Source of the DNA: a bacterium
Lineage (GTDB): Bacteria > Desulfobacterota > Desulfocorpusculales > Desulfocorpusculum
Direction of reading: 5' to 3'
Assembly: GCA_037481695.1 (NCBI GenBank)
Contig: JBBFLE010000010.1
Coordinates: 1 to 64,000, forward strand
Length of the DNA: 64,000 bases
In this document: one piece after another, positions 1 through 18,714 of the stretch
Position numbering within the stretch: the first letter of the stretch is position 1
Layout of the letters: every line of letters begins with the position of its first letter
The notes under the pieces: generated by a model
The model's input: the letters and a program-made list of their open reading frames with translations, nothing else
What the model was told of the DNA's origin: nothing
Databases searched by the model: none
Program-made: the position numbers and the translations under genes

Positions 1-651
1 TCCTCCAAGTGGTGGGAGGGGACCAATTATGCCATGTTTACCGGGGATTTTGACACCTGGGAATACACCTTGAGGGAGCAGGCCAAGCGTGTGGAGGAGC
101 TGGGCTGTAAGACCATGGCCTACACCGAATGAGGGCACGGACTTTGGGCTACCCAGGTTGGGTACCGGAGGTTCAAGATAGAGCACAAGTTTGATGTGGT
201 CAGCGTTGTGAATCTCTATGCCAAGTGGCTGAGGGAAGGCAGGCTGAAGGTTGATCCTGAGCGAAATGGGGATATTGTGGTCACGTTACACGATCCCTGC
301 AATGTGGTTCGCAAGGCCGCCCTGGATGGTTTTCCTGGCATAGCTGATGACGCCCGCTATGTGCTAAGCCGAGTGGTGAAGAATTTTGTGGAGATGGATC
401 CCAACAGGGAGAACAACATCTGTTGCAGCGGTGGTGGGGGTGCCCTCATAAACGGCTTTGCCAGGGCCAGAACCTATTACGGTAAGATCAAGGTGGACCA
501 GATCAAGCGATCCGGGGCCAGCAAGGTTTGCACTCCTTGTGTGAACTGCTTCGATGGAATAAACAATCTGGCCAGGGAATACAAGGACACCTATGAGTTC
601 GAGTCTGTGCATCTGTGGACCCTTTTGGCCAATGCCATAGTGCTGGAATGA
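1..651 (+). CDS. CCG-domain (HdrD/GlpC-like) Fe-S oxidoreductase, C-terminal part, probable selenoprotein
   Basis: The 5' end lies outside the window. Reading frame 1 runs from base 1 through a TGA at 130-132 and on to the stop at 649-651. Before the TGA the protein reads ...CKTMAYTE and after it GHGLW, which matches the ECGHA-type motif of the first CCG domain of HdrB/HdrD/GlpC/TmcB proteins, with the TGA at the conserved cysteine. The second CCG domain follows intact: HDPC, then CCSGGGG, then CTPCVNC. CCG cysteines in this family bind an unusual [4Fe-4S] centre for disulfide or electron transfer chemistry. A hairpin starts 14 nt after the TGA (separate entry). I therefore read it as Sec, not a broken gene. 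The physiological partner is not visible; the hdrA operon at 6 kb lacks an HdrB, so a link is possible but unproven. Confidence 0.8.
133..166 (+). promoter_or_regulatory. Putative bacterial SECIS element (CCG-domain gene)
   Basis: Starting 14 nt after the TGA at 130-132, bases 147-154 (GGCTACCC) pair with 160-166 (GGGTACC), leaving one bulged C at 149 and the loop AGGTT (155-159). A bulge low in the stem and an apical loop beginning AGG resemble the E. coli fdhF SECIS, whose loop is AGGUCU. The geometry fits SelB recruitment. No folding energy was calculated. Confidence 0.65.
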
Positions 652-864: not shown

Positions 865-2586
865 ATGAAGAGAGCCAAGCTTGGATCATCGAGCCATCTT
901 GAAGAGGGCCTGGATAGAGTGGCCAGATATTTGCTCCAATGGTCCAGGGACGGAGTGCTGGTCTGCGATGTTTCGGGTCGCATAGGCATGGCCAACCCTG
1001 CTGCAGCAGATCTCCTGGGATATGAGAGTCCTGAGGAGCTTTGTGAAGATAGAAATCTAGAAGAACTGTTCCAAGATCCCAAAGAGGTGGAGTTGCTTCG
1101 CTTAAAGGCGGAACCCCTGGGTTCGGTGAGGGAGTTCCACTGCTTTCTGAAAAAGAAGGAGGGTGGCTTATTGGAAGCCAGGGTCACCTTGGCTGCCATA
1201 GGGGGGGCAGACAGGCAGCTTCAGGGACACATGTTGATCCTGAGGGATGTTTCGGAAGAGATAAGAGCCAGAGAAGAGCTAAGCCAACAAAGCGCAAGGC
1301 TTGCCACCTTGAGCTCCATAGCCACAACCCTGACCAGCAGCCTTGAGCTGAAAGAGGTTTTGGAACACACCATAGACGAGCTCTTGAAGATGTTGAGCGG
1401 GGCCAGCATCCGCATATATATGCTGGATTCCAAGGGTGAATGGCTCAACCTGGTGGCCTGGAAGGGGGCCTCCATCAGATTCATAGACAGGCCGCACTTC
1501 CAGCGCCGAAAGGTGGGCGACGGGCTGCTGGGCAAGACCGTGCTTCATAAGAGGGCCATAGTGGTGGACAATTTCCTGAGAGCCGAGGATCCCTATGTAC
1601 AGGACATAGTGGAGGAGGGGTTGATCTCCTCTGTATATATTCCCCTCATGTCCAAGGACAAAGCCGTTGGGGCATTGTGTGTTTCCAGCTACAGCGAGTT
1701 TCGTTTCCCCCAGGATTTCGTGGATTTCTTGACCGCAGTGGGAAACCAGATAGGCGTGGCAATGGAGAACGCCAATCTTTATGAGGGGCTAAAGGAGGCC
1801 TACCAAGAACTTCGCAGGACTCAGGAGCAACTCATCAGAAGTGAGAAGCTGGCTTCCCTGGGGAAGCTGGCAGCAACCATAGCCCATGAGATCAATAACC
1901 CCCTTTCTGTGGTGCTCACATATACCAAGCTCATGAAGAACATGCTGAGGCGGGGGAGCTTCAACCCCAAGAGGCTTGCTGACATCTCCAGATTTCTGGA
2001 CACCATGGAGTCAGAGACAGCCCGCTGTGGAGAAATAGTCAGAAACCTCTTGGCCTTTGCACGGCACTCCACCTTGAATGTGGCCGAGCACAGGATAGAG
2101 GAGATCATCCAGAGGACCGTGGCCCTGGTCTCCCATGATTTGGAAATGAGAGAGATGAGGCTCAGGTGTTCCTGCGAGCCCGGGCTTCCCCCTGTGCGAT
2201 GTGATTTCCGCCAGATTCAGCAGGCCATCTTGAATCTGGTCATGAACGGCGTGGAAGCCATGGGGAAAGGGGGCCTGCTAAGCCTTGAGGCCAAGAAGGG
2301 AGACAGGGAGGGATTCTTGCTCTTGAGCGTGAAAGACACGGGTTGCGGCATACCCGAGGAGCATCTCTCGCAGATATTCGAGCCCTTTTTCACCACAAAG
2401 GAAGAGGCCAAGGGCGTGGGTCTTGGGCTGGCAGTGGTGTACGGTATCATCACCAGACATGGAGGCAGCATAGAGGTACAAAGCCGGGTAGGGGAGGGGA
2501 CAACTTTCAGAGTCTATCTTCCCTGTGTGTATGAGCCGTCAACGACTCTCCATGCCAACGGAAACCAGGAAAGGGATATCCCATGA
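865..2586 (+). CDS. Cytosolic PAS-GAF sensor histidine kinase
   Basis: 573 residues. A PAS domain lies at about 15-135 (GVLVCDVSGRIGMANPAA), a GAF domain at about 150-310, a short coiled coil, then HisKA with the phospho-acceptor His in ATIAHEINNP near residue 341, and a HATPase domain at about 450-560 with N box (LNLVMNGVEAM), G1 (DTGCGIP), F box (FEPFFTT) and G2 (GVGLGLAVVYGI). No membrane segment or signal peptide is seen, so it should sense an intracellular signal through PAS/GAF. Its end overlaps the response regulator start by 4 nt (ATGA), which makes the two a cognate, translationally coupled pair of the NtrB/NtrC or AtoS/AtoC kind. The start at 865 lacks a strong Shine-Dalgarno sequence and is tentative. 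The signal is unknown. Confidence 0.92.
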   Translation: MKRAKLGSSSHLEEGLDRVARYLLQWSRDGVLVCDVSGRIGMANPAAADLLGYESPEELCEDRNLEELFQDPKEVELLRLKAEPLGSVREFHCFLKKKEGGLLEARVTLAAIGGADRQLQGHMLILRDVSEEIRAREELSQQSARLATLSSIATTLTSSLELKEVLEHTIDELLKMLSGASIRIYMLDSKGEWLNLVAWKGASIRFIDRPHFQRRKVGDGLLGKTVLHKRAIVVDNFLRAEDPYVQDIVEEGLISSVYIPLMSKDKAVGALCVSSYSEFRFPQDFVDFLTAVGNQIGVAMENANLYEGLKEAYQELRRTQEQLIRSEKLASLGKLAATIAHEINNPLSVVLTYTKLMKNMLRRGSFNPKRLADISRFLDTMESETARCGEIVRNLLAFARHSTLNVAEHRIEEIIQRTVALVSHDLEMREMRLRCSCEPGLPPVRCDFRQIQQAILNLVMNGVEAMGKGGLLSLEAKKGDREGFLLLSVKDTGCGIPEEHLSQIFEPFFTTKEEAKGVGLGLAVVYGIITRHGGSIEVQSRVGEGTTFRVYLPCVYEPSTTLHANGNQERDIP

Positions 2587-3935
2587 CACGAAGGCCCAGG
2601 ATACTGGTGGTGGACGACGAGGCTCCCATGCGGGAGAGCCTCAAGGACTGGCTCACAGAGGACGGCTACGAGGTGGACTTGGCATCAGGAGGGGAGCAGG
2701 CTATTGCCATGGCCAGGCAGCGGGATTGGGATGTGATTCTCCTGGATCTGAAGATGCCTGGGATGGACGGTCTGGAAACCCTAAGAAGGCTCAAGGGGGA
2801 GGATGTGGGCACAGAGGCCCAGGTCATAATCATGACCGCATACGGAACCATCGACACGGCGGTTCAGGCCATGAAGGAGGGAGCATTTGATTATTTGTTA
2901 AAACCCTTTGACCCTGACCAGGTGGAGCTGGAGATACAGCGAATCATCTCTCACAGGGAACTCCTCATGGAGAACCTGCTGCTTAGGCAAAAGTTGGAGG
3001 ACAGGGCCGAGTTCGATGAGATCGTGGGTAGAAGTCAGCCCATGCAAAGGATCTATGAGCTCATAGAAAAGGTTGCTCCCACGGATTCCACTGTGCTCAT
3101 CACAGGAGAAAGCGGAACAGGAAAGGAATTAATAGCCAGGGCCATACACGCCAACAGTCCCAGGTGCTACAAGCCCTTCATAGCAGTAAGCTGCGGGGCT
3201 CTGCCTGATTCCATCCTGGAAAGCGAGCTTTTTGGTTATGAGAAAGGTGCCTTCACAGGAGCCATGCACACAAAGAGAGGCCGTTTCGAACTGGCCCACC
3301 AGGGCACGCTTTTCCTGGATGAGGTAGGGGAGATCAGCATTAAGACCCAGGTGGACCTGCTCAGGGTTCTCCAGGAGAAGGAATTTTGCAGGCTGGGGGG
3401 TCATGAACCCCTTAAGGTGGATGTGCGCATTTTGGCTGCCACCAACAGGGATCTCAAAAGAGCCATTGCAGAAAATCGCTTCAGGGAAGATCTATATTAC
3501 CGGCTAAATGTAATCTGTATCCAGGTGCCTCCTTTGAGGGAGCGCAAGGAGGATATTCCCCTTCTTGTGGAGAGCTTCATCAAGAAACACTCCCTGGTGA
3601 TGAACAGGGAGCCTGTGAGGATCTCTCCATCAGCCCTCAAGATGCTCATGGAATATGACTGGCCCGGCAATGTGAGGGAGTTGGAAAATGTCATAGAGAG
3701 GGCCCTGGTCATAGGCAAAGGAGGCCAGATCCTGCCTGAAGATCTGCCCTTCTACAAGAGGGAAGAACCCTGTGAGCCAAGACCCAAATCCCTAAAGGGA
3801 ATGGAGAAACTCCATATTGAACGTATACTGGAGGAAACAGGCTGGAACATCAGACAGGCGGCCCGTCTCTTGGAGATAGACAGGCAGACCCTTTACAACA
3901 AAATGAAACGCTACAAGATTGAGCCCAGGAGGTAA
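2583..3935 (+). CDS. Sigma54-dependent response regulator (NtrC/AtoC family)
   Basis: 450 residues with the full three-domain order: receiver (1-120) with phospho-acceptor Asp in LLDLKMPG near residue 56; AAA+ sigma54 activator domain (about 145-370) with Walker A GESGTGKE near 175 and the sigma54-contact loop GAFTGA near 222; and a C-terminal Fis-type helix-turn-helix (about 405-448, NIRQAARLLEIDRQTLYNKM). It should activate sigma54 promoters once phosphorylated by the kinase encoded just upstream. I found no convincing -24/-12 element in the gaps I checked by eye, so its targets are unknown. Confidence 0.95.
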   Translation: MTRRPRILVVDDEAPMRESLKDWLTEDGYEVDLASGGEQAIAMARQRDWDVILLDLKMPGMDGLETLRRLKGEDVGTEAQVIIMTAYGTIDTAVQAMKEGAFDYLLKPFDPDQVELEIQRIISHRELLMENLLLRQKLEDRAEFDEIVGRSQPMQRIYELIEKVAPTDSTVLITGESGTGKELIARAIHANSPRCYKPFIAVSCGALPDSILESELFGYEKGAFTGAMHTKRGRFELAHQGTLFLDEVGEISIKTQVDLLRVLQEKEFCRLGGHEPLKVDVRILAATNRDLKRAIAENRFREDLYYRLNVICIQVPPLRERKEDIPLLVESFIKKHSLVMNREPVRISPSALKMLMEYDWPGNVRELENVIERALVIGKGGQILPEDLPFYKREEPCEPRPKSLKGMEKLHIERILEETGWNIRQAARLLEIDRQTLYNKMKRYKIEPRR

Positions 3936-5926: not shown

Positions 5927-6033
5927 GAGGTGACTACCTCTGGAGAACCGCATTTGCCTCCCCCAGATTGATAACTGATTGGCAAGCCTTCCTCCAATGG
6001 AAAGCTCAATCACTTCTTGTAGGAGAGCGATAC

Positions 6034-9000
6034 ATGGCTAAGGGATGTGTTCTGGTAGTGGGCGGCGGCATAGGTGGCGTTCAAGCAGCCCTGGATCTCG
6101 CCGAAAGCGGCTTTCATGTGTACCTGGTGGAGAGTTCTGCTGCCATAGGCGGCACCATGAGCCAGTTGGACAAGACCTTTCCCACTAATGATTGCGCCAT
6201 GTGCATCCTTTCACCCAAGGTGGTGGAATGCGGCCGCAATCTCAACATCGAGCTGCTGACCAACTCAGAAGTCCTTGACATTCAAGGTGAACCCGGGGAT
6301 TTCAAGGTGGAGGTGGCTCAGTTTCCCCGTTATATTGATCTGTCCAGCTGTACCGCATGCGGGGAGTGTGCCAAAGTCTGTCCAGTGGAGAGGCCCAATG
6401 AATACGATTTAGGGCTTTCCAAGAGAAAGGCCACCTACAAACGTTATCCTCAGGCCATTCCCAGCGGTTACGCCATCCAAAAGCTGGATACTGCCCCCTG
6501 TCGCATGGCATGTCCGGCCAACCTCAATGTGCAAGCCTATGTGGCCATGGTGAAAGAGGGCAAATATAAAGAGGCCGTGCAGATCATCATGAGGGATCTG
6601 CCTTTCCCAGGCGTACTGGGAAGGGTTTGCCCTCACCGTTGCGAGGAGAGCTGTAGGCGCAAGCAGGTGGATCAGCCCATATCCATCAGGGAGATCAAGA
6701 GGGTGGCTGCTGATCATGCCCCGGTGGGAGAGCTTGAGGTTCCCCCCATAGACTTCAAAGAGGATCGGGTGGCTGTGGTGGGATCTGGCCCAGCTGGATT
6801 GACGGCCGCCTATTTCCTGGCCTTGGAAGGCTACAAGGTGACGGTCTATGACTCCATGCCAGAGCCGGGAGGAATGATGCGCTACGGCATACCCGAGCAT
6901 AGACTCCCCCGTTCTGTCCTGGATGCCGAGATAGAAAACCTGAAGCGATTTGGGGTGGAGATCCAGACCAATGTGCGCATAGGAAAAGACGTGACCCTCA
7001 AGGAGCTGAGGGAACATGGGGCCAAGGCCGTGTTTCTGGCCACCGGGGCCTGGAAGGGGCTCAAGCTGGGTATCCCAGGGGAAAAGGATGGGCCGGGGGT
7101 CCAGGATGTGACCAGCTTTCTAAGAGAGGTGCATCTGGGCCAGCTCAAGAAAGTCCAGGGCAAGGTGGTGGTCATCGGAGGCGGTCATTCGGCTCTGGAT
7201 GGGGCCAGGACAGCCCTTCGCTTGGGTGCAAGCGAGGTGAGCATTCTGTACAGGCGCTCCAGGGCAGAGATGCTGGCAGAGCCCGAGGAAATAGAGGAAG
7301 CAGAGGCCGAGGGAGTCAAGATCAACTTTCTGGCTGCTCCTTTGAGGGTGGTGCACGAGGGAGGCAGGCTCAAGGGTCTGGAGTGTATAAGGACCAGGCT
7401 CACTGAGCCTGACAGCACAGGCAGGCGAAAGCCCATCCCGGTGGAGGGTTCGGAGTTCTTCCTGGAGGCGGATCACATTATCCCGGCCATAGGCCAAGAG
7501 CCTGATTTGGAATTCCTGGGAGATGGGCTGCAGTTGGATGTTTCCAAGTGGAACTTGCTGGTGGTGAACCCTGAAACCCTTCAGACCAGCGTGCCCTGGA
7601 TATTCGCAGGAGGCGATGTGGTAACAGGTCCGGCCACCGTGATCGAAGCAGTAGCAGCGGGAAAGAGAGCTGCCCATTACATAGTCAAGTACTTGAAAGG
7701 CGAAGAACTTCCCAAGGAATGGGTGGAAGAACCTCCCATGGGGGACAACTGGACCGAAATTCCTGCAGATGTGGAACGCAGGGAGCGTATGAAGGTACCT
7801 GTGGTGCCTGCCCCGGAGAGGATAAAGGGATTCCAGGAGGTGAGACTCCAGGTGCAAGAGGAACTGGCACAGCAAGAGGCTGCCAGATGTCTGGATTGTG
7901 GTGGATGCTGCGAGTGCTACCAATGCGTGGCAGCCTGCAAGGCCGGCGCCGTTGTGCACGACATGGAGGAGCAAAGGCGGACTCTTGAGGTTGGGGCGGT
8001 GATCCTGGCTCCGGGCTTTGAAACCGTTGACGCCAGAAAGCTCAGGACTTACGGCTACGGTCGCATCAAGAACGTTGTTACCAGCAAAGAATTCGAGAGA
8101 ATTCTAAGTGCCTCAGGCCCATTTCAGGGCCACATGGTCAGGCTTTCGGATCACCAGGAGCCCAAGCGCATAGCTTGGATCCAGTGCGCCGGATCCAGGA
8201 ACATAAATGAGGGAGATCATCCTTACTGCTCCTCGGTGTGTTGCATGTACGCCATAAAACAGGCCGTCATAGCCAAGGAGCACGCCAAAGGGGATCTGGA
8301 TGCCACCATATTTTTCATGGACATGCGCACCTTTGGAAAGGATTTCGAGCGCTATTATGACAGGGCTCGCCAAGAGATAGGGGTGCGTTTCGTTCGCTCC
8401 CGAATCCATTCGGTGGTTGAGGATCCTGACACCAAGAGCCCCTTGATCCGTTACGTGGATGAAGAAGGGAAGGTCCACGAAGAGACCTTCGACATGGTGG
8501 TGCTCTCCGTGGGCATGGAGCCTTCTGCCTCTGCCGTGGAGCTGGCAAAGAAGGCGGGGGTGGAGCTGGATCCTTACGGCTTCTCCTCCTTAGGGGGGCT
8601 CGAGGCCGTGGCAACCTCCAGACCCGGTATCTTCGTGTGCGGAGCCTTCGAAGGGCCCAAGGACATCCCCGAAACAGTGATGCAGGCATCTTCTGCTGTG
8701 GGCAGGGCCGAGACCATCTTGGCCGAGGCCAGATACACGGAGATCCTGGAGCGCTCTTACCCAGAGGAGATAGATATTTCCAAGGAAGAGCCCAGGATTG
8801 GAGTCTTTGTATGCGATTGCGGCATCAACATAGCAAGCGTTGTGCGAGTGCCTGAGGTGAGGGACTATGCTGCCACATTGCCGGGGGTGGTCTATGCTGC
8901 AGAGAATCTATTCAGTTGCAGCCAGGACAACATCCAGCGCATGGTGGAGGTAATCAGGGAGCAGGGTCTAAACCGGGTTGTGGTGGCCTCCTGCAGCCCC

Positions 9001-10449
9001 AGGACTCATGAACCCCTCTTCAGGGAAACCATCAGACAGGCAGGGCTGAATCCATATCTCTTTGAGATGGCCAATATCCGGGACCAGGGCTCCTGGGTGC
9101 ACCAACAGGAGCCTGAGAAGGCAACTCAAAAAGCCAAGGATCTGGTGAGGATGGCCGTGGCCAAGGTCAGAAACGCCAAGCCTCTGCAACAGCTCACGGT
9201 GCCTGTGGAACAGACAGCCTTGGTGGTGGGAGGCGGTGTGGCAGGCATGAACTCGGCCCTGAACATAGCTGACCAGGGCTACGTTGTGCACTTGGTGGAA
9301 AAGACCGAACAGTTAGGCGGCATTGCTCAAAAGCTGCACACCACCATCGAGGGAGACGACATAAAGGCCTATCTGGAGAACCTGGTGGAGCGGGTGAAAA
9401 AGCATCCCAAAATCAAGCTTCACCTTGGCAGTCAGATCCTTTCCCACGCGGGTTTTGTGGGAAACTTCCAGACCCAGATCTCCAACTCCAAGGGCACAGA
9501 GGAGATTCGCCACGGTGTCACAGTCATAGCCACCGGCGCCAGGCCTTACGAGCCCAATGAATACCTTTATGGACAGGATCCCAAAGTCAAGACCTATTTT
9601 GAGATCTCTGACCTGCTGGCAAAGGGTGCTTCAGCCTTGGAAGGGGTGGACACCGTGGTCATGATACAGTGCGTGGGATCCCGAAACGAGCAAAATCCGT
9701 ACTGCAGCCGCATTTGCTGCCAGGGCTCTGTTAAGAGTGCACTGAAGATAAAGGAACTCAAGCCAGAGGCCAAGGTGTTCATCCTCTACAGAGATATCAG
9801 GACCTACGGTCTCATGGAGCTCTACTACCAGGAGGCCAGGAAAAAAGGAGTCAGTTTCATCAGGTTCAAGAAGGAGGAGCCCCCTGTTGTGGAAAAAACA
9901 GATCAGGGGCTGGTGGTGAGGGTCAAGGACCACGTGCTGGGGGAAGAAGTGGAGATTCACGCGGATCTTGTGGGCCTGGCCATAGGTGTGGAAGGGGAGA
10001 AAGATCAGCCTGTGGCTTTGCAGTTCAAGCTTCCTGTGAATGCGGACGGCTTTTTCATGGAAGCGCATATGAAACTCAGACCCGTGGACTTCGCCTCAGA
10101 AGGTAATTTCTTGGCGGGTCTGGCCCACGGTCCCAAACTCCTAAGAGACACCATAGCCCAGGCTCAGGCTGCTGCGGCCAGGGCCGTGACCGTGCTGGCC
10201 AAGGAAAGACTCTATCTGCCTGGAGAGAAGGCCTGGGTGGATGAGGGGCGTTGCGTGGCATGCCTCACCTGCGTCAGGGCCTGCCCCTATCATGTGCCCC
10301 AGGTGGGGACAAAAGGTGTGGCTGAGATCAATCCGGCTGCGTGCCAGGGCTGCGGGATCTGCACCTCGGCCTGTCCCAGGAAAGCCATTCAACTGGGAGG
10401 ATACACGGACCAGGAGATACTGGCCAAGGTGGCAGCCTTAGAGGGATAG
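6034..10449 (+). CDS. hdrA: Large HdrA (HdrL-like) iron-sulfur flavoprotein with inserted NfnB/GltD-like module
   Basis: 1471 residues from ATG 6034, chosen because AGGAGAG lies just upstream and the family start MAKGCVLVVGGGIGG follows. Order: an HdrA-type FAD motif and cysteine-rich segment (NDCAMC; CTACGECAKVC); from about 153 a glutamate synthase small subunit/NfnB-like part (APCRMACPANLN, then VAVVGSGPAGLTAA and VVVIGGGHSALDGA) with two nucleotide-binding folds; CLDCGGCCECYQC near 618; HdrA-like sequence; then from about 920 a second, canonical HdrA (VFVCDCGINI; ALVVGGGVAGMNSA near 1060) ending with two ferredoxin motifs near 1405. HdrA carries the bifurcating flavin in Hdr-type complexes. 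Followed directly by mvhD and metVF. Inference: an electron hub joining NAD(P)H, ferredoxin and the MetVF or formate modules. Confidence 0.9.
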   Translation: MAKGCVLVVGGGIGGVQAALDLAESGFHVYLVESSAAIGGTMSQLDKTFPTNDCAMCILSPKVVECGRNLNIELLTNSEVLDIQGEPGDFKVEVAQFPRYIDLSSCTACGECAKVCPVERPNEYDLGLSKRKATYKRYPQAIPSGYAIQKLDTAPCRMACPANLNVQAYVAMVKEGKYKEAVQIIMRDLPFPGVLGRVCPHRCEESCRRKQVDQPISIREIKRVAADHAPVGELEVPPIDFKEDRVAVVGSGPAGLTAAYFLALEGYKVTVYDSMPEPGGMMRYGIPEHRLPRSVLDAEIENLKRFGVEIQTNVRIGKDVTLKELREHGAKAVFLATGAWKGLKLGIPGEKDGPGVQDVTSFLREVHLGQLKKVQGKVVVIGGGHSALDGARTALRLGASEVSILYRRSRAEMLAEPEEIEEAEAEGVKINFLAAPLRVVHEGGRLKGLECIRTRLTEPDSTGRRKPIPVEGSEFFLEADHIIPAIGQEPDLEFLGDGLQLDVSKWNLLVVNPETLQTSVPWIFAGGDVVTGPATVIEAVAAGKRAAHYIVKYLKGEELPKEWVEEPPMGDNWTEIPADVERRERMKVPVVPAPERIKGFQEVRLQVQEELAQQEAARCLDCGGCCECYQCVAACKAGAVVHDMEEQRRTLEVGAVILAPGFETVDARKLRTYGYGRIKNVVTSKEFERILSASGPFQGHMVRLSDHQEPKRIAWIQCAGSRNINEGDHPYCSSVCCMYAIKQAVIAKEHAKGDLDATIFFMDMRTFGKDFERYYDRARQEIGVRFVRSRIHSVVEDPDTKSPLIRYVDEEGKVHEETFDMVVLSVGMEPSASAVELAKKAGVELDPYGFSSLGGLEAVATSRPGIFVCGAFEGPKDIPETVMQASSAVGRAETILAEARYTEILERSYPEEIDISKEEPRIGVFVCDCGINIASVVRVPEVRDYAATLPGVVYAAENLFSCSQDNIQRMVEVIREQGLNRVVVASCSPRTHEPLFRETIRQAGLNPYLFEMANIRDQGSWVHQQEPEKATQKAKDLVRMAVAKVRNAKPLQQLTVPVEQTALVVGGGVAGMNSALNIADQGYVVHLVEKTEQLGGIAQKLHTTIEGDDIKAYLENLVERVKKHPKIKLHLGSQILSHAGFVGNFQTQISNSKGTEEIRHGVTVIATGARPYEPNEYLYGQDPKVKTYFEISDLLAKGASALEGVDTVVMIQCVGSRNEQNPYCSRICCQGSVKSALKIKELKPEAKVFILYRDIRTYGLMELYYQEARKKGVSFIRFKKEEPPVVEKTDQGLVVRVKDHVLGEEVEIHADLVGLAIGVEGEKDQPVALQFKLPVNADGFFMEAHMKLRPVDFASEGNFLAGLAHGPKLLRDTIAQAQAAAARAVTVLAKERLYLPGEKAWVDEGRCVACLTCVRACPYHVPQVGTKGVAEINPAACQGCGICTSACPRKAIQLGGYTDQEILAKVAALEG

Positions 10450-10557: not shown

Positions 10558-10983
10558 ATGGAGTACGAACCCAAGATAGCGGCTTTCTGTTGCACTTATT
10601 GCGCGTATTCGGCTGCTGATCTGGCAGGTTCCATGAGACTTCAGTACCCGCCCAGTGTTCGCATGGTAAAGTTGCTATGTACGGGCAAGGTGGAACCCCT
10701 TCACCTTCTCAAGGCTTTTGAATCAGGGGCCGATGCGGTATTTGTGGCCGGGTGACTGGAGGGCGAATGCCATTTCCTGGAAGGAAATGTTAGGGCCAAA
10801 AGGTGGGTTCGCTTTACCAAGAAGCTACTGCAGGAAATAGGGATCGAGCCTGAGCGGTTGGAGATGTTCAACATGAGTTCCTCCATGGCTCCGGCTTTTG
10901 CAGAAGCAGTAACGGAAATGACAAGAAGGGCCAAGGAACTGGGCCCTTCTCCTCTGAAGAGAAAAAACAAGAATGCGGCCTGA
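10558..10983 (+). CDS. mvhD: MvhD electron-transfer subunit, probable selenoprotein (Sec66)
   Basis: ATG 10558 is preceded by AGGAGG. The frame contains a TGA at 10753-10755 and continues to TGA 10981-10983, giving 141 residues with Sec at 66. Before the TGA: FCCTYCAYSAADLAG and GADAVFVAG; after it: LEGECHFLEGN. This matches the MvhD/FrhD signature in which the TGA position is normally Cys, one of the cysteines around the [2Fe-2S] cluster that passes electrons to HdrA. A Sec in the homologous archaeal VhuD is known. A hairpin follows 15 nt after the TGA. A tool that stops at TGA would report an 85-residue fragment starting at GTG 10498. It sits between hdrA and metV, as in acetogen MetVF-Hdr-MvhD clusters. 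Confidence 0.88.
10756..10789 (+). promoter_or_regulatory. Putative bacterial SECIS element (mvhD)
   Basis: CATTTCC (10771-10777) pairs perfectly with GGAAATG (10783-10789) around the loop TGGAA; the stem starts 15 nt after the TGA. The loop carries the GG seen in bacterial SECIS apical loops. The spacing closely matches the hairpin after the TGA at 130. Confidence 0.7.
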
Positions 10984-11085: not shown

Positions 11086-11757
11086 ATGATAGTAGGAGAG
11101 CGGAAACCCCTGGAAGAGATCAAATCTTACCTGGATGGCTGTCAGCGGATACTGGTCTTGGGCTGTGGTACTTGTGTTGCGGTTTGCATGGCCGGAGGTG
11201 AAAAGGAAGTGCAGCTTCTGGCCTCCCAACTCAGGATGGCCTTCAAGAAGGAAGGCAAGGATGTGATTGTGGAGGAAGATACCATCCAGCGCCAGTGCGA
11301 CAGGGAGTATTTCGAAACAGTAAAACACAAAATGGAGAATTACGATGTGGTGGTTTCCCTGGCCTGCGGGGCAGGAGTGCAGCTGGCAGCAGAACTGTTC
11401 CCCAAGCGGGTGATATTGCCAGGACTCAACACCACGTTCATAGGAGTGGCTGAAAAAGAGGGAGTCTGGAGTGAAAAGTGTAGGGCCTGCGCCAACTGCC
11501 TGCTGGCTGAAACTGGGGGTGTGTGCCCAATTACCATATGCCCCAAGGGTTTGGTCAACGGGCCCTGCGGAGGGACAAACCACGGAAAGTGTGAGGTAAG
11601 CAAGGAGAAAGATTGCGCTTGGACCTTGATTTACAAGAGGCTGGAGGGACAAGGCAGACTGGATAAGATCAAAGAGATTCATCCAGCCAAGAACTACAAG
11701 GTGCAGACCACTCCATCCACAATCTGGCACGCCGCTTACAAAGATGAGGAGGCTTGA
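11086..11757 (+). CDS. metV: MetV, zinc-binding partner subunit of methylenetetrahydrofolate reductase
   Basis: 223 residues of the MTHFR_C (MetV) family. Visible features are a glycine and cysteine-rich start (VLGCGTCVAVC), a central AAELFPKRVILPGLNTTF segment, and a cysteine cluster CRACANCLL...GGVCPITICPKGLVNGPCGG typical of the C-terminal half. In acetogens MetV binds MetF and carries Fe-S clusters that link it to HdrA/MvhD. A 102-nt gap separates it from mvhD; AGGAGG near its end serves metF. Confidence 0.9.
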   Translation: MIVGERKPLEEIKSYLDGCQRILVLGCGTCVAVCMAGGEKEVQLLASQLRMAFKKEGKDVIVEEDTIQRQCDREYFETVKHKMENYDVVVSLACGAGVQLAAELFPKRVILPGLNTTFIGVAEKEGVWSEKCRACANCLLAETGGVCPITICPKGLVNGPCGGTNHGKCEVSKEKDCAWTLIYKRLEGQGRLDKIKEIHPAKNYKVQTTPSTIWHAAYKDEEA

Positions 11758-11759
11758 TC

Positions 11760-12644
11760 ATGCCCATGCCCTTTGCCGAAGCACTTGAGAAGAAGGATTT
11801 CGTGATAACAGCGGAGATAGGGCCTCCTAAAGGTGTGGACATAGAAGAGATGCTTCATAACATAGAGCTTCTCAAGGACAAGGTGGATGCCTTGAACGTC
11901 ACCGATAACCAGAGTTCGGTGATGCGCATAGGTAGCCTTCCTGTTTGCAAGCTGATCAAAGAGGCTGGAGGGGAGCCCATTCTTCAGATGACCTGCCGGG
12001 ACAGAAACCGGGTTGCGCTGCAGTCAGAGCTTCTCGGGGCCTATGTGCTGGGTATCAGAAACGTGCTGGCACTCACCGGAGATTACATAACAGTAGGGGA
12101 TCACATAGAGGCCAAGCCCGTATTTGATCTGGATTCGGTCCTTTTGGTGAAGCTTATACGCCAGTTGGAGCAGGGCAAGGACTTTGCAGGCAATGACCTC
12201 AAGGGCTCCCCCAAGTTCTGCGTGGGGGCCATAGTCACACCCGAGGCAGATCCCATAGAGCCCCAGCTTCTCAAATTTGAAAAAAAGATCAAAGCAGGGG
12301 CTGAGTTCATCCAGACCCAGGCCATATACGATCTAGACAACTTCAAGAAGTTCATGGGCTACGCCAGGAAGTTCAACGTAAAGATACTGGCAGGCATAGT
12401 GCTTCTGGCCTCTGCTGGTATGGCAAGGTTCATGAATGCCAACGTGCCTGGGATCTTTGTTCCCCAAGAACTCATAGACGAGTTGGCGGGCGCTCCCAAG
12501 GGCAAGGCTCTGCAAAAGGGAATTGAGATCGCAGGTAGAATGGTGAGACAGCTGAAAGAGGAAAAAATTTGTGACGGGGTTCACATAATGGCCATAGGTA
12601 GAGAGCACGTTGTGCCTGAAATCCTGGCGGCTGCTGGCATGTGA
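11760..12644 (+). CDS. metF: Methylenetetrahydrofolate reductase
   Basis: 294 residues, TIM-barrel FAD enzyme reducing methylene-THF to methyl-THF. Family motifs are present near the N-terminus (VITAEIGPPKG), at DALNVTDNQSS, in the folate-binding region (LLGAYVLGIRNVLALTGDY) and at GAEFIQTQAIYDL. Start chosen at ATG 11760, 7 nt after AGGAGG; the TTG at 11754 is too close to that site. It lies 2 nt after metV. With metV, mvhD and hdrA it should form the methyl-branch reductase of the Wood-Ljungdahl pathway, running in either direction depending on metabolism. Confidence 0.95.
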   Translation: MPMPFAEALEKKDFVITAEIGPPKGVDIEEMLHNIELLKDKVDALNVTDNQSSVMRIGSLPVCKLIKEAGGEPILQMTCRDRNRVALQSELLGAYVLGIRNVLALTGDYITVGDHIEAKPVFDLDSVLLVKLIRQLEQGKDFAGNDLKGSPKFCVGAIVTPEADPIEPQLLKFEKKIKAGAEFIQTQAIYDLDNFKKFMGYARKFNVKILAGIVLLASAGMARFMNANVPGIFVPQELIDELAGAPKGKALQKGIEIAGRMVRQLKEEKICDGVHIMAIGREHVVPEILAAAGM

Positions 12645-16020: not shown

Positions 16021-18714
16021 ATGGCCGGAGTGAAGCTTACGATTGATGGTAAAGAGTTGGTAACTGCGCAGGACAACACCATCCTCATGGCAGCAAGGCA
16101 GGCCAAAATACATATCCCAACCCTTTGTTACCATCCCAGGCTGCCCATCTCAGGGGCCTGCCGGGTTTGTGTGGTGGAAGTGGAGGGAAGGCCGGCACTT
16201 GTGGCCTCATGTGCCATGCCCGTGGCAGAGGGAATGGTGGTTCACACTAAGAGCGAGAGGGTGCTTAGGGCAAGGAGGCTGGTTGTGGACTTGCTCTTGG
16301 CAAGCGGGGATCACAACTGTCTGCTTTGTCAATCCAATGGGTCATGCGAGCTGCAGGAGCTGGCATACGAGCTAGGTATCGAGAGCTTCCGGTTCCCTGT
16401 TGATTCACCGGGTTACGCCAAGGACACCTCCAATGCCATGATCGAGCGGGACCTCAACAAGTGCATCCTGTGCGGCAGATGTGTAAGGGCTTGTAACGAG
16501 GTCCAGGTAAACGAGGTCATAGACTTTGGTTACAGGGGGGGTAAGGCCAAGATAGTCACTGCATGGGATCTTCCTTATGGAGAGTCCAATTGCGTGTTCT
16601 GCGGAGAGTGCGTCTCTGTATGTCCCACAGGGGCTCTCACAGAGCGACAGGCCAAGTTCCAGGCCAGGCCATGGAGGCTCAAGAAGGTGCGCACCACCTG
16701 CACTTACTGCGGGGTCGGCTGCCAACTGGATCTGAATGTGTCCGATGGAAAGGTGGTCAAGGTCACATCAGATTACAGATATGGCCCACCTAATTTCGGA
16801 AGCCTGTGTGTAAAAGGACGATTTGGCTATGATTTTATTCACCATCCCGACAGGCTCACGCAGCCCTTGATCAAGGACCAGGGGAGCTTCAGGGAGGCCA
16901 GCTGGGACGAGGCTCTGGATCTGGTGGCAAGTAAGCTCTCGGAGATCAAGTCCAAGTATGGATCTCATGCCCTGGCCGGGCTTACCTCTGCCCGCTGCAC
17001 CAACGAGGAGAACTACCTCTTCCAAAAATTCTTCAGAGGAGCCCTCGGAACCAACAATGTAGATCACTGTGCCCGTCTTTGACACAGCTCCACGGTGGCA
17101 GGTCTTGCCGCCGCGTTTGGAAGTGGGGCCATGACCAACTCCATTTCAGAGATGGAGAGGGCCGAGGTTATACTGCTTACGGGCAGCAATACCACTGAGA
17201 TGCACCCTGTCATAGCTGGTTACATAAAAAGAGCGGTGCGCCAAAGGGGAGCCAAGCTGATTGTTGTAGACCCCAGGAGGATAGATCTGGTCTCGTACTC
17301 GGAGCTTTGGCTCAATCCCAAACCAGGGACAGATGTGGCATGGATAAATGGATTGATCCACGTGATCCTAAGGGATGGAATGGAAGATCGCACTTACATT
17401 GAGCAGCGCACAGAGGGCTTTGAAGCCCTGAAAAATGTGGTCCAGAAATACACTCCCAAGAAGGTGGAGTCCATCACAGGAATCCCTGCCAGTGATCTGG
17501 AGAAAGCAGCCAGGCTCTATGCCCAGGCCAATTGTGCCTCCATCGTTTATGCCATGGGTATCACCCAGCACACCTCCGGGACCGACAACGTGAAGGCTCT
17601 GGCCAACCTTGCAATGATCTGCGGAAATGTTGGGGTTCCCAACGGCGGTGTAAATCCTTTGAGAGGTCAGAACAATGTTCAGGGTGCCTGCGACATGGGC
17701 GGGCTTCCCAATGTTTTCAGCGGCTACCAGCCTGTGGGTGACGAGGCCATCAGGGAAAAGATGGCCCGGGCCTGGGCAGTGGAATCTCTGCCCGACAAAC
17801 CGGGCCTGACTCTAATGGAAATGATGGATGGTGCGGCCAAGGGTGAAATCAAAGGCATGTTCATAATGGGCGAAAACCCCATGCTTTCTGACCCGGATCT
17901 GCACCATGTGGAGGAGGCCCTGAAAAATCTGGAGTTCCTGGTGGTGCAGGATATTTTCCTAACAGAGACCGCAAGACTGGCCCACGTGGTCTTACCAGGG
18001 GTTTCTTTTGCAGAAAAAGAAGGCACCTTCACAAATACGGAGAGGCGGGTCCAGCGCGTGAGGAAAGCGGTTGAGCCCCCAGGCCTAGCTAGGCAGGACT
18101 GGGAGATCCTGTGCTCCCTTTCCACCCGTATGGGACTTCCCATGGTTTACAAAGACCCTGAGGCTGTGATGGATGAGATCAGGCAGGTTACTCCCAGCTA
18201 TGGGGGTATCACCTATGCCAGGATAGAAAAGATAGGGCTGCAATGGCCTTGTCCCACACTGGATCATCCGGGCACTGCTTTCTTGCACAAAGACCGATTC
18301 ACCAGGGGTAGGGGGCTCTTTCACCCGGTCGAATACACCAAGCCGCCAGAGCTTCCTGACGAGGAGTATCCATTTTACCTCTCCACAGGCCGGATCCTTT
18401 ACCAATATCACGGGGCCAGCATGAGCAGGCGCTCCAAGGGCTTATCCGAAAGGGCGCCAAGATGCGAGGTGGAAATCTCCCCTCAGGATGCAAAGAGGAT
18501 GGGCCTCAAGGAGGGCTCCACGGTAAGGGTGCTATCCAGGAGAGGGCAGATAAATGCTGTGGCCAGAATAACGGATAAGGCCGTAGAGGGCACTGTGTTC
18601 GTTCCATTTCATTATGCTGAGGCAGCAGCCAACCTGCTGACCCATTCCAAACTGGACCCGGTCTCCAAGATCCCGGGTTACAAGGTTTGCGCTGTGAGGG
18701 TGGAGCCCCTATGA
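16021..18714 (+). CDS. fdhA: Formate dehydrogenase catalytic subunit, selenoprotein (Sec354), NuoG-type N-terminus
   Basis: 897 residues when the TGA at 17080-17082 is read as Sec. N-terminus: [2Fe-2S] ferredoxin ([15 protein letters not shown]), a His/Cys [4Fe-4S] motif ([14 protein letters not shown]), two further clusters ([22 protein letters not shown]). Then the molybdopterin/tungstopterin enzyme with [10 protein letters not shown]. The junction DHCARL[12 protein letters not shown] is the active site of formate dehydrogenases; E. coli FdhF has Sec at the same place. Later, molybdopterin-binding segments ([26 protein letters not shown]) are intact. Gene tools would split it into 353- and 539-residue pieces. 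With the two genes upstream it forms a soluble NAD-linked, possibly bifurcating, formate dehydrogenase. No signal peptide, so cytoplasmic. Confidence 0.95.
17083..17112 (+). promoter_or_regulatory. Bacterial SECIS element (fdhA)
   Basis: GGTGGC (17094-17099) pairs with GCCGCC (17107-17112) around loop AGGTCTT. The stem begins 11 nt after the TGA. Both the loop (AGGUCU plus U) and the 11-nt spacing are almost identical to the E. coli fdhF SECIS. Confidence 0.85.

Follow-up and report, generated by a model that had tools for sequence, protein, structure and literature searches.

The window, that is the whole stretch of 64,000 nucleotides analysed here, opens inside a gene whose TGA at 130-132 is, judging from the sequence, decoded as selenocysteine (Sec) with near certainty. 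Model and sequence together point to a soluble HdrC-HdrB fusion with the shape of HdrD. The predicted Sec adjoins, and is not among, the canonical ligands of a non-cubane cluster. The explanation that we find best as a whole, and hold to be probable, is a Sec-containing HdrCB-like unit in which cluster and Sec form a redox pair within a Wood-Ljungdahl assembly. The features of the gene are as follows.

1-648, plus strand: C-terminal 216 residues of a fused HdrC-HdrB (HdrD-like) selenoprotein with a CCG domain, related to HmcF, TmcB, DsrK and HdrB; stop codon TGA at 649-651.
130-132, plus strand: TGA almost certainly read as Sec (U44) in the motif T-E-U-G-H; the column is invariably Cys or Sec in alignment A1, and close orthologues have TGA.
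136-138, plus strand: His of E-U-G-H, aligned by hmmsearch and hhalign with EtfD His583, a ligand of the non-cubane cluster D2 (PMC13083937).
139-174 (core 147-166), plus strand: bacterial SECIS-like hairpin with apical loop AGGTT, its GG invariant, indicated by folding and covariation.
298-549, plus strand: intact CCG motif C100-X40-C141-C142-X37-C180-X2-C183 (codons at 298, 421, 424, 538 and 547), predicted ligands of a non-cubane [4Fe-4S] cluster.

The frame 1-651 comprises 217 codons and is open from base 1 apart from the TGA at 130-132. The 43-residue piece upstream of this TGA and the part downstream form one protein, as homologues align across both. Ordinary gene calling splits such Sec proteins in two. 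The earlier note had placed the TGA in the Cys column of an E-C-G-H motif with conserved flanks, and both points held. Orthologues have TGA at this column, and TGC or TGT is found elsewhere. In alignment A1, E231, G233 and H234 are invariant and position 232 is only Cys or Sec; among HdrD/DsrK/TmcB/HmcF-like relatives the Sec column is otherwise invariant Cys. No relative carries a third residue there.

TGA occupies the same column in L024 (genome G001; 90-91% identity), L025 (G002; 86%) and L073 (G211; 76%). L024 and L025 come from the two other genomes of the family, which are sister genera, and L073 from another family. The class and family searches amounted to three genomes only, the further homologues being drawn from a sampling of the phylum. 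TGC is present in L026-L029 (64-67% identity). In a second clade, at 44-53% identity, most phylum homologues carry TGA, with scattered TGC members (L085, L094 and L097). Dozens of more distant homologues also have TGA, and others have TGC or TGT. A tree of 41 sequences requires five changes between Sec and Cys, each forced by well supported branches. In this tree, a supported Sec clade made up of the window protein, L024, L025 and L073 stands next to a Cys group.

The genome is known from a single assembly and the gene lies at a contig end, so that the TGA might be a sequencing error for TGC or TGT, or the disabling mutation of a pseudogene. The chance of this is negligible. Independent genomes share the TGA, the SECIS is conserved, and most differences that separate the window from L024, L025 and L073 fall on the third base of a codon, before the TGA as well as after it. 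A sequencing error was rejected on these grounds.

A SECIS-like hairpin had been proposed at 147-166; it is borne out as the apical part of a longer stem. Region 130-190 folds with -19.9 kcal/mol (z = -2.31) into a single stem, 139-174. Every TGA homologue has a collinear apical stem and loop, and the loop GG is invariant (29/29 distinct sequences). Across 22 distinct 23-mers from TGA homologues, 93.5% of the pair cells are standard. Four of the seven stem pairs have changed on both sides, including A-U to G-C and C-G to U-A. The covariation score was reached by none of 500 shuffles, a test that carries no correction for relatedness; a control that does correct for it, with the partner slid by one base, lowers the pairing to 37-48%. 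In Cys homologues the stem pairing is lost, and local folding weakens from a mean of -11.7 (TGA) to -4.1 kcal/mol (Cys). Suppression at synonymous sites in the hairpin is not clear, third positions being changed in 3/12, 6/12 and 8/12 cases inside versus 14/36, 17/36 and 24/36 outside. The support for the hairpin is covariation, not synonymous-site suppression, and the predicted structure is far above chance.

Decoding genes are present. The genome contains a tRNA-Sec with anticodon UCA, SelA (595 bits) and SelB (370 bits), the latter being the only SelB above the cut-off. Two more Sec-type genes, MvhD/FlpD and FdhA, lie in the window. UGA130 would be decoded by tRNA-Sec(UCA) and SelB via the hairpin just downstream. 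Reading of UGA130 as cysteine by a selC*-type tRNA-Cys was considered, because the genome has a tRNA-Cys shaped like tRNA-Sec and selC* tRNA-Cys with a UCA anticodon is known in Desulfobacterales (PMC7609411). The anticodon of the tRNA found here is GCA and would not read UGA. Moreover, of the eight loci that most resemble tRNA-Sec, only tRNA-Sec itself carries a UCA anticodon, and a single SelB exceeds the cut-off. The cysteine reading was rejected on the anticodon and keeps a very slight probability. The selC*-like tRNA-Cys (L034 1500-1593, minus strand) is located near YedE-transporter-like and TusA-like open frames.

Because contig C10 begins inside the Sec gene, the N-terminal half of the protein is absent from the window. 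The full-length orthologues L024 and L025 have an N-terminal HdrC-type [4Fe-4S] motif pair and a C-terminal CCG domain; HdrC matches their N-terminal part in a profile comparison. The HdrC-HdrB fusion is read from L024, the 90% orthologue, and the window holds the HdrB part only, with the Pfam CCG (cysteine-rich) domain downstream of the TGA. A phmmer search of the 217-aa piece against the PDB gave no match, and a profile of full-length relatives did match. The AlphaFold2 model of L024, built from 25 aligned sequences and with cofactors outside the model, has a pLDDT of 88.8. Search with Foldseek gave EtfD (9ojn) as its best PDB match (TM 0.68 by query), followed by a LutA-LutB model and then HdrB. 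An HdrCB-type fold with one non-cubane cluster is very likely. No membrane helices were seen in the orthologues.

The NCBIfam relatives of the window protein are HmcF, TmcB and DsrK, all far below cut-offs. Authentic DsrK, TmcB and HmcF were rejected, with L024 scoring 144, 216 and 248 bits against cut-offs of 400, 735 and 750. Authentic GlpC was rejected as well (34.8 bits for L024 against 279.9 for TIGR03379). The DsrK/TmcB/HmcF-type homologues of the same genome (L012 and L013) are 31-42% identical. Like the window protein, DsrK, TmcB and HmcF have one intact CCG and the invariant ECGH position, but with Cys in place of Sec; a literature search found no solved structure of DsrK. HdrD of HdrDE shares with L024 the fusion of an HdrC-type dicluster part with an HdrB-type CCG part. 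However, it has two complete CCG cluster sites and the window protein has one.

The location of Sec44 was deduced from EtfD of M. smegmatis (9ojn). Both hmmsearch and hhalign align E-C/U-G-H with T-C581-P-H583 of EtfD, placing Sec on Cys581. In EtfD, Cys581 is a ligand of the linear [3Fe-4S] cluster D1 together with Cys503, 538 and 584, and the non-cubane cluster D2 is held by His583 and Cys637, 672, 673, 709 and 712 (PMC13083937). The CCG2 ligand cysteines and the motif His of EtfD and of HdrB (5odc) align with the window protein, in which all five CCG ligands are still Cys. At the first site, EtfD keeps its linear cluster and HdrB a second non-cubane one, whereas the window protein has lost those ligands. 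Since the equivalents of EtfD C503, C538 and C584 are not conserved and only one CCG is complete, we predict that the first cluster is missing and that Sec44 is all that is left of its site. By homology, Sec44 would lie near the remaining non-cubane cluster, two residues before the His that touches it.

The earlier note had described the substituted residue as a CCG-domain cysteine that binds the catalytic [4Fe-4S] centre. The invariant Cys column stands, but ECGH belongs to a vestigial first CCG half, outside the intact CCG motif. Binding of the catalytic cluster by this column is not supported, as the five CCG ligands are all Cys located elsewhere and Sec corresponds to a D1 ligand. The note had also suggested that Sec, as a likely ligand or redox partner of such a centre, would alter its potential. 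In the ligand version, a selenolate would bind the catalytic non-cubane [4Fe-4S] cluster directly and tune it. Sec is two residues from the equivalent of the D2-ligating His and could therefore reach an open iron, and in HdrB the catalytic iron carries a bridging Cys that can be displaced (PMC13083937). Nevertheless, the conservation of the five canonical cysteines and the attachment of Cys581 to the other cluster in EtfD make direct ligation unlikely. For Sec as a redox partner beside the cluster rather than a ligand, we put the chances at about even.

The genome measures 4.1 Mb in 52 contigs, and the window starts at base 1 of C10. N-terminal halves of the Sec gene are found at two contig ends, C7:171809-172336 and C18:2-325 (genome G000). 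A second C-terminal half, at C32:1-277, encodes a protein 95% identical to that of the window. Four halves are thus found at four contig ends (the pieces on C7, C18 and C32 are L100, L101 and L102). The assembly was probably broken by two closely similar copies of the gene. From synteny with the gene orders of L024 and L025, C18 would join C10 and C7 would join C32, the C18-C10 join being drawn from L024 only.

Downstream of the Sec gene are found, in this order, a histidine kinase, a sigma-54 regulator, a GcvH-like protein, HdrA, Sec-containing MvhD, MetV, MetF, a CbiA-type ATPase, which we take to be CooC-like, a NuoF-like protein and Sec-containing FdhA. The main features are:

865-3935, plus strand: PAS/GAF histidine kinase (865-2586) and sigma-54 response regulator (2583-3935), both kept downstream in L024.
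5968-10449, plus strand: HdrA-type subunit (1493 aa; HdrL-like) into which an NAD(P)H-type Fer4_20/Pyr_redox_2 unit is inserted, adjoining MetVF; likely partner.
10558-10983, plus strand: MvhD/FlpD with an in-frame TGA at 10753-10755 (VAG-U-LEGEC); likely partner.
11086-12644, plus strand: MetV (11086-11757) and MetF (11754-12644), methylene-tetrahydrofolate reductase; possible partner.
TGA at 17080-17082 (ARLUHSST): molybdopterin formate dehydrogenase alpha subunit, which brings the selenoproteins of the window to three and belongs, with the NuoF-like subunit, to an NADH-type FDH set.

A hairpin can also form after the TGA of MvhD/FlpD, the second selenoprotein of the window. HdrA and MvhD are 5-11 kb downstream of the Sec gene and MetVF about 10 kb, with the two-component system and other genes in between. 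The C18 side carries CODH (634 bits), the ACS gamma (corrinoid) subunit (599 bits), a pterin-binding protein and a DRTGG protein; synteny would place CODH/ACS upstream of the window gene. In L024 the order is a DRTGG-like gene, the Sec gene, kinase and regulator. In L025, FlpD and Flx-like genes precede the Sec gene, and rubrerythrin follows. Among the Cys orthologues, the order at L027 is an FlpD-fused protein, the orthologue itself, DsrC, MetV and MetF, and at L026 an FlpD-fused protein, the orthologue itself and DsrC. L028 is preceded by two FAD-dependent dehydrogenases resembling GlpA/GlpB. No DsrC was found beside the window copy; the DsrC that scores above the cut-off sits on contig C7.

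MetVF, HdrA and MvhD in the window, with CODH/ACS by synteny, are the context from which we propose a Wood-Ljungdahl role. DsrC with MetVF at L027 and DsrC at L026 give further context. MetFV-HdrABC is known from Moorella, and metF-HdrABC has been proposed in sulfate reducers (PMC10553843). Within a MetVF-HdrA(HdrL)-MvhD assembly, the protein would act as the HdrBC-like unit, a tentative assignment that we place a little short of even chances. Its HdrC part would hold two cubane [4Fe-4S] clusters, and the protein as a whole would serve as a soluble electron-transfer or disulfide-reductase subunit. The second, intact CCG would bind one non-cubane [4Fe-4S], and the first site, devoid of a cluster, would retain one Cys or Sec. 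Electrons delivered by HdrA/MvhD could then pass along the HdrC clusters and reach the non-cubane cluster. With the adjacent Sec acting as its redox partner, this cluster may cleave or form a disulfide. A DsrC-type protein is a possible disulfide partner.

Alternatively, Sec might serve only fast electron transfer or protection from oxidation, in an electron wire without disulfide substrate. Indeed, the closest solved fold, EtfD, is such a wire without disulfide chemistry, and L028 follows its two GlpA/GlpB-like dehydrogenases. But EtfD closes its clusters with His and further CCG1 cysteines that are absent here, and DsrC genes adjoin L026 and L027. We consider a pure wire rather doubtful. A bolder reading would have Sec in the functional place of the lost catalytic iron-sulfur cluster, creating a new disulfide-cleaving site. 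In HdrB, the two disulfide halves go to two non-cubane clusters; here, the single remaining cluster would take one half, and Sec would hold the other as a selenenyl sulfide. This idea is improbable as it stands. If true, a cluster-selenol site would couple the reduction of methylene-THF to a disulfide in a protein, DsrC for example.

Sec-containing Fe-S oxidoreductases had been named in the earlier note as known from deltaproteobacteria, which the literature confirms (PMC1794560, PMC13188914 and PMC2702500). By its motif, SECIS and decoding genes, the window protein is classed in the known 'Fe-S oxidoreductase-like/GlpC' selenoprotein family (motif UGH) and is not a new kind; PTHR43551 members were compared by description only. 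It shares with this family an in-frame UGA in U-G-H, the SECIS, the Sec decoding genes, the Fe-S oxidoreductase character and a Desulfobacterota setting, in which hdrA and frhD/mvhD are often close by (Zhang 2006, PMC1794560; PMC13188914). The family has been listed since 2006, and our literature search found neither a function nor a structural placement of its Sec. The recent EtfD structure, which by alignment locates Sec at what remains of the first CCG cluster site, beside the cluster-touching His, makes its role testable. The protein hence offers a handle on the role of selenium next to an odd iron-sulfur cluster.

The window protein belongs to a clade apart, and its locus is not the one described for the family. 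There, the published operon reads glpC-hdrA-frhD-frhG-frhA and includes a hydrogenase, whereas the locus of the window clade is a Wood-Ljungdahl one; this unusual setting among carbon-fixation genes is the new element. No frhG or frhA was seen between 1 and 12,700, the upstream side being on another contig. The locus also makes the protein testable, as it links the Sec clade to MetVF/HdrA/MvhD, a system for which sulfate reducers have no settled electron partner of methylene-THF reductase. According to PMC2702500, HdrD4 and HdrF2 of the Wood-Ljungdahl sulfate reducer Desulfobacterium autotrophicum are likewise fused HdrC-HdrB Sec proteins. The same paper describes an HdrL and gives HdrD as soluble and HdrF as having membrane helices, unlike the window orthologues. 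The second genomic copy of the window Sec gene also differs from the described operon in that it accompanies an HdrA/FlpD/Flx-like set. The genome has a further, more remote Sec paralogue (47%), L010 1429-2700 on the minus strand, which is placed between an HdrA-like gene and response regulators.
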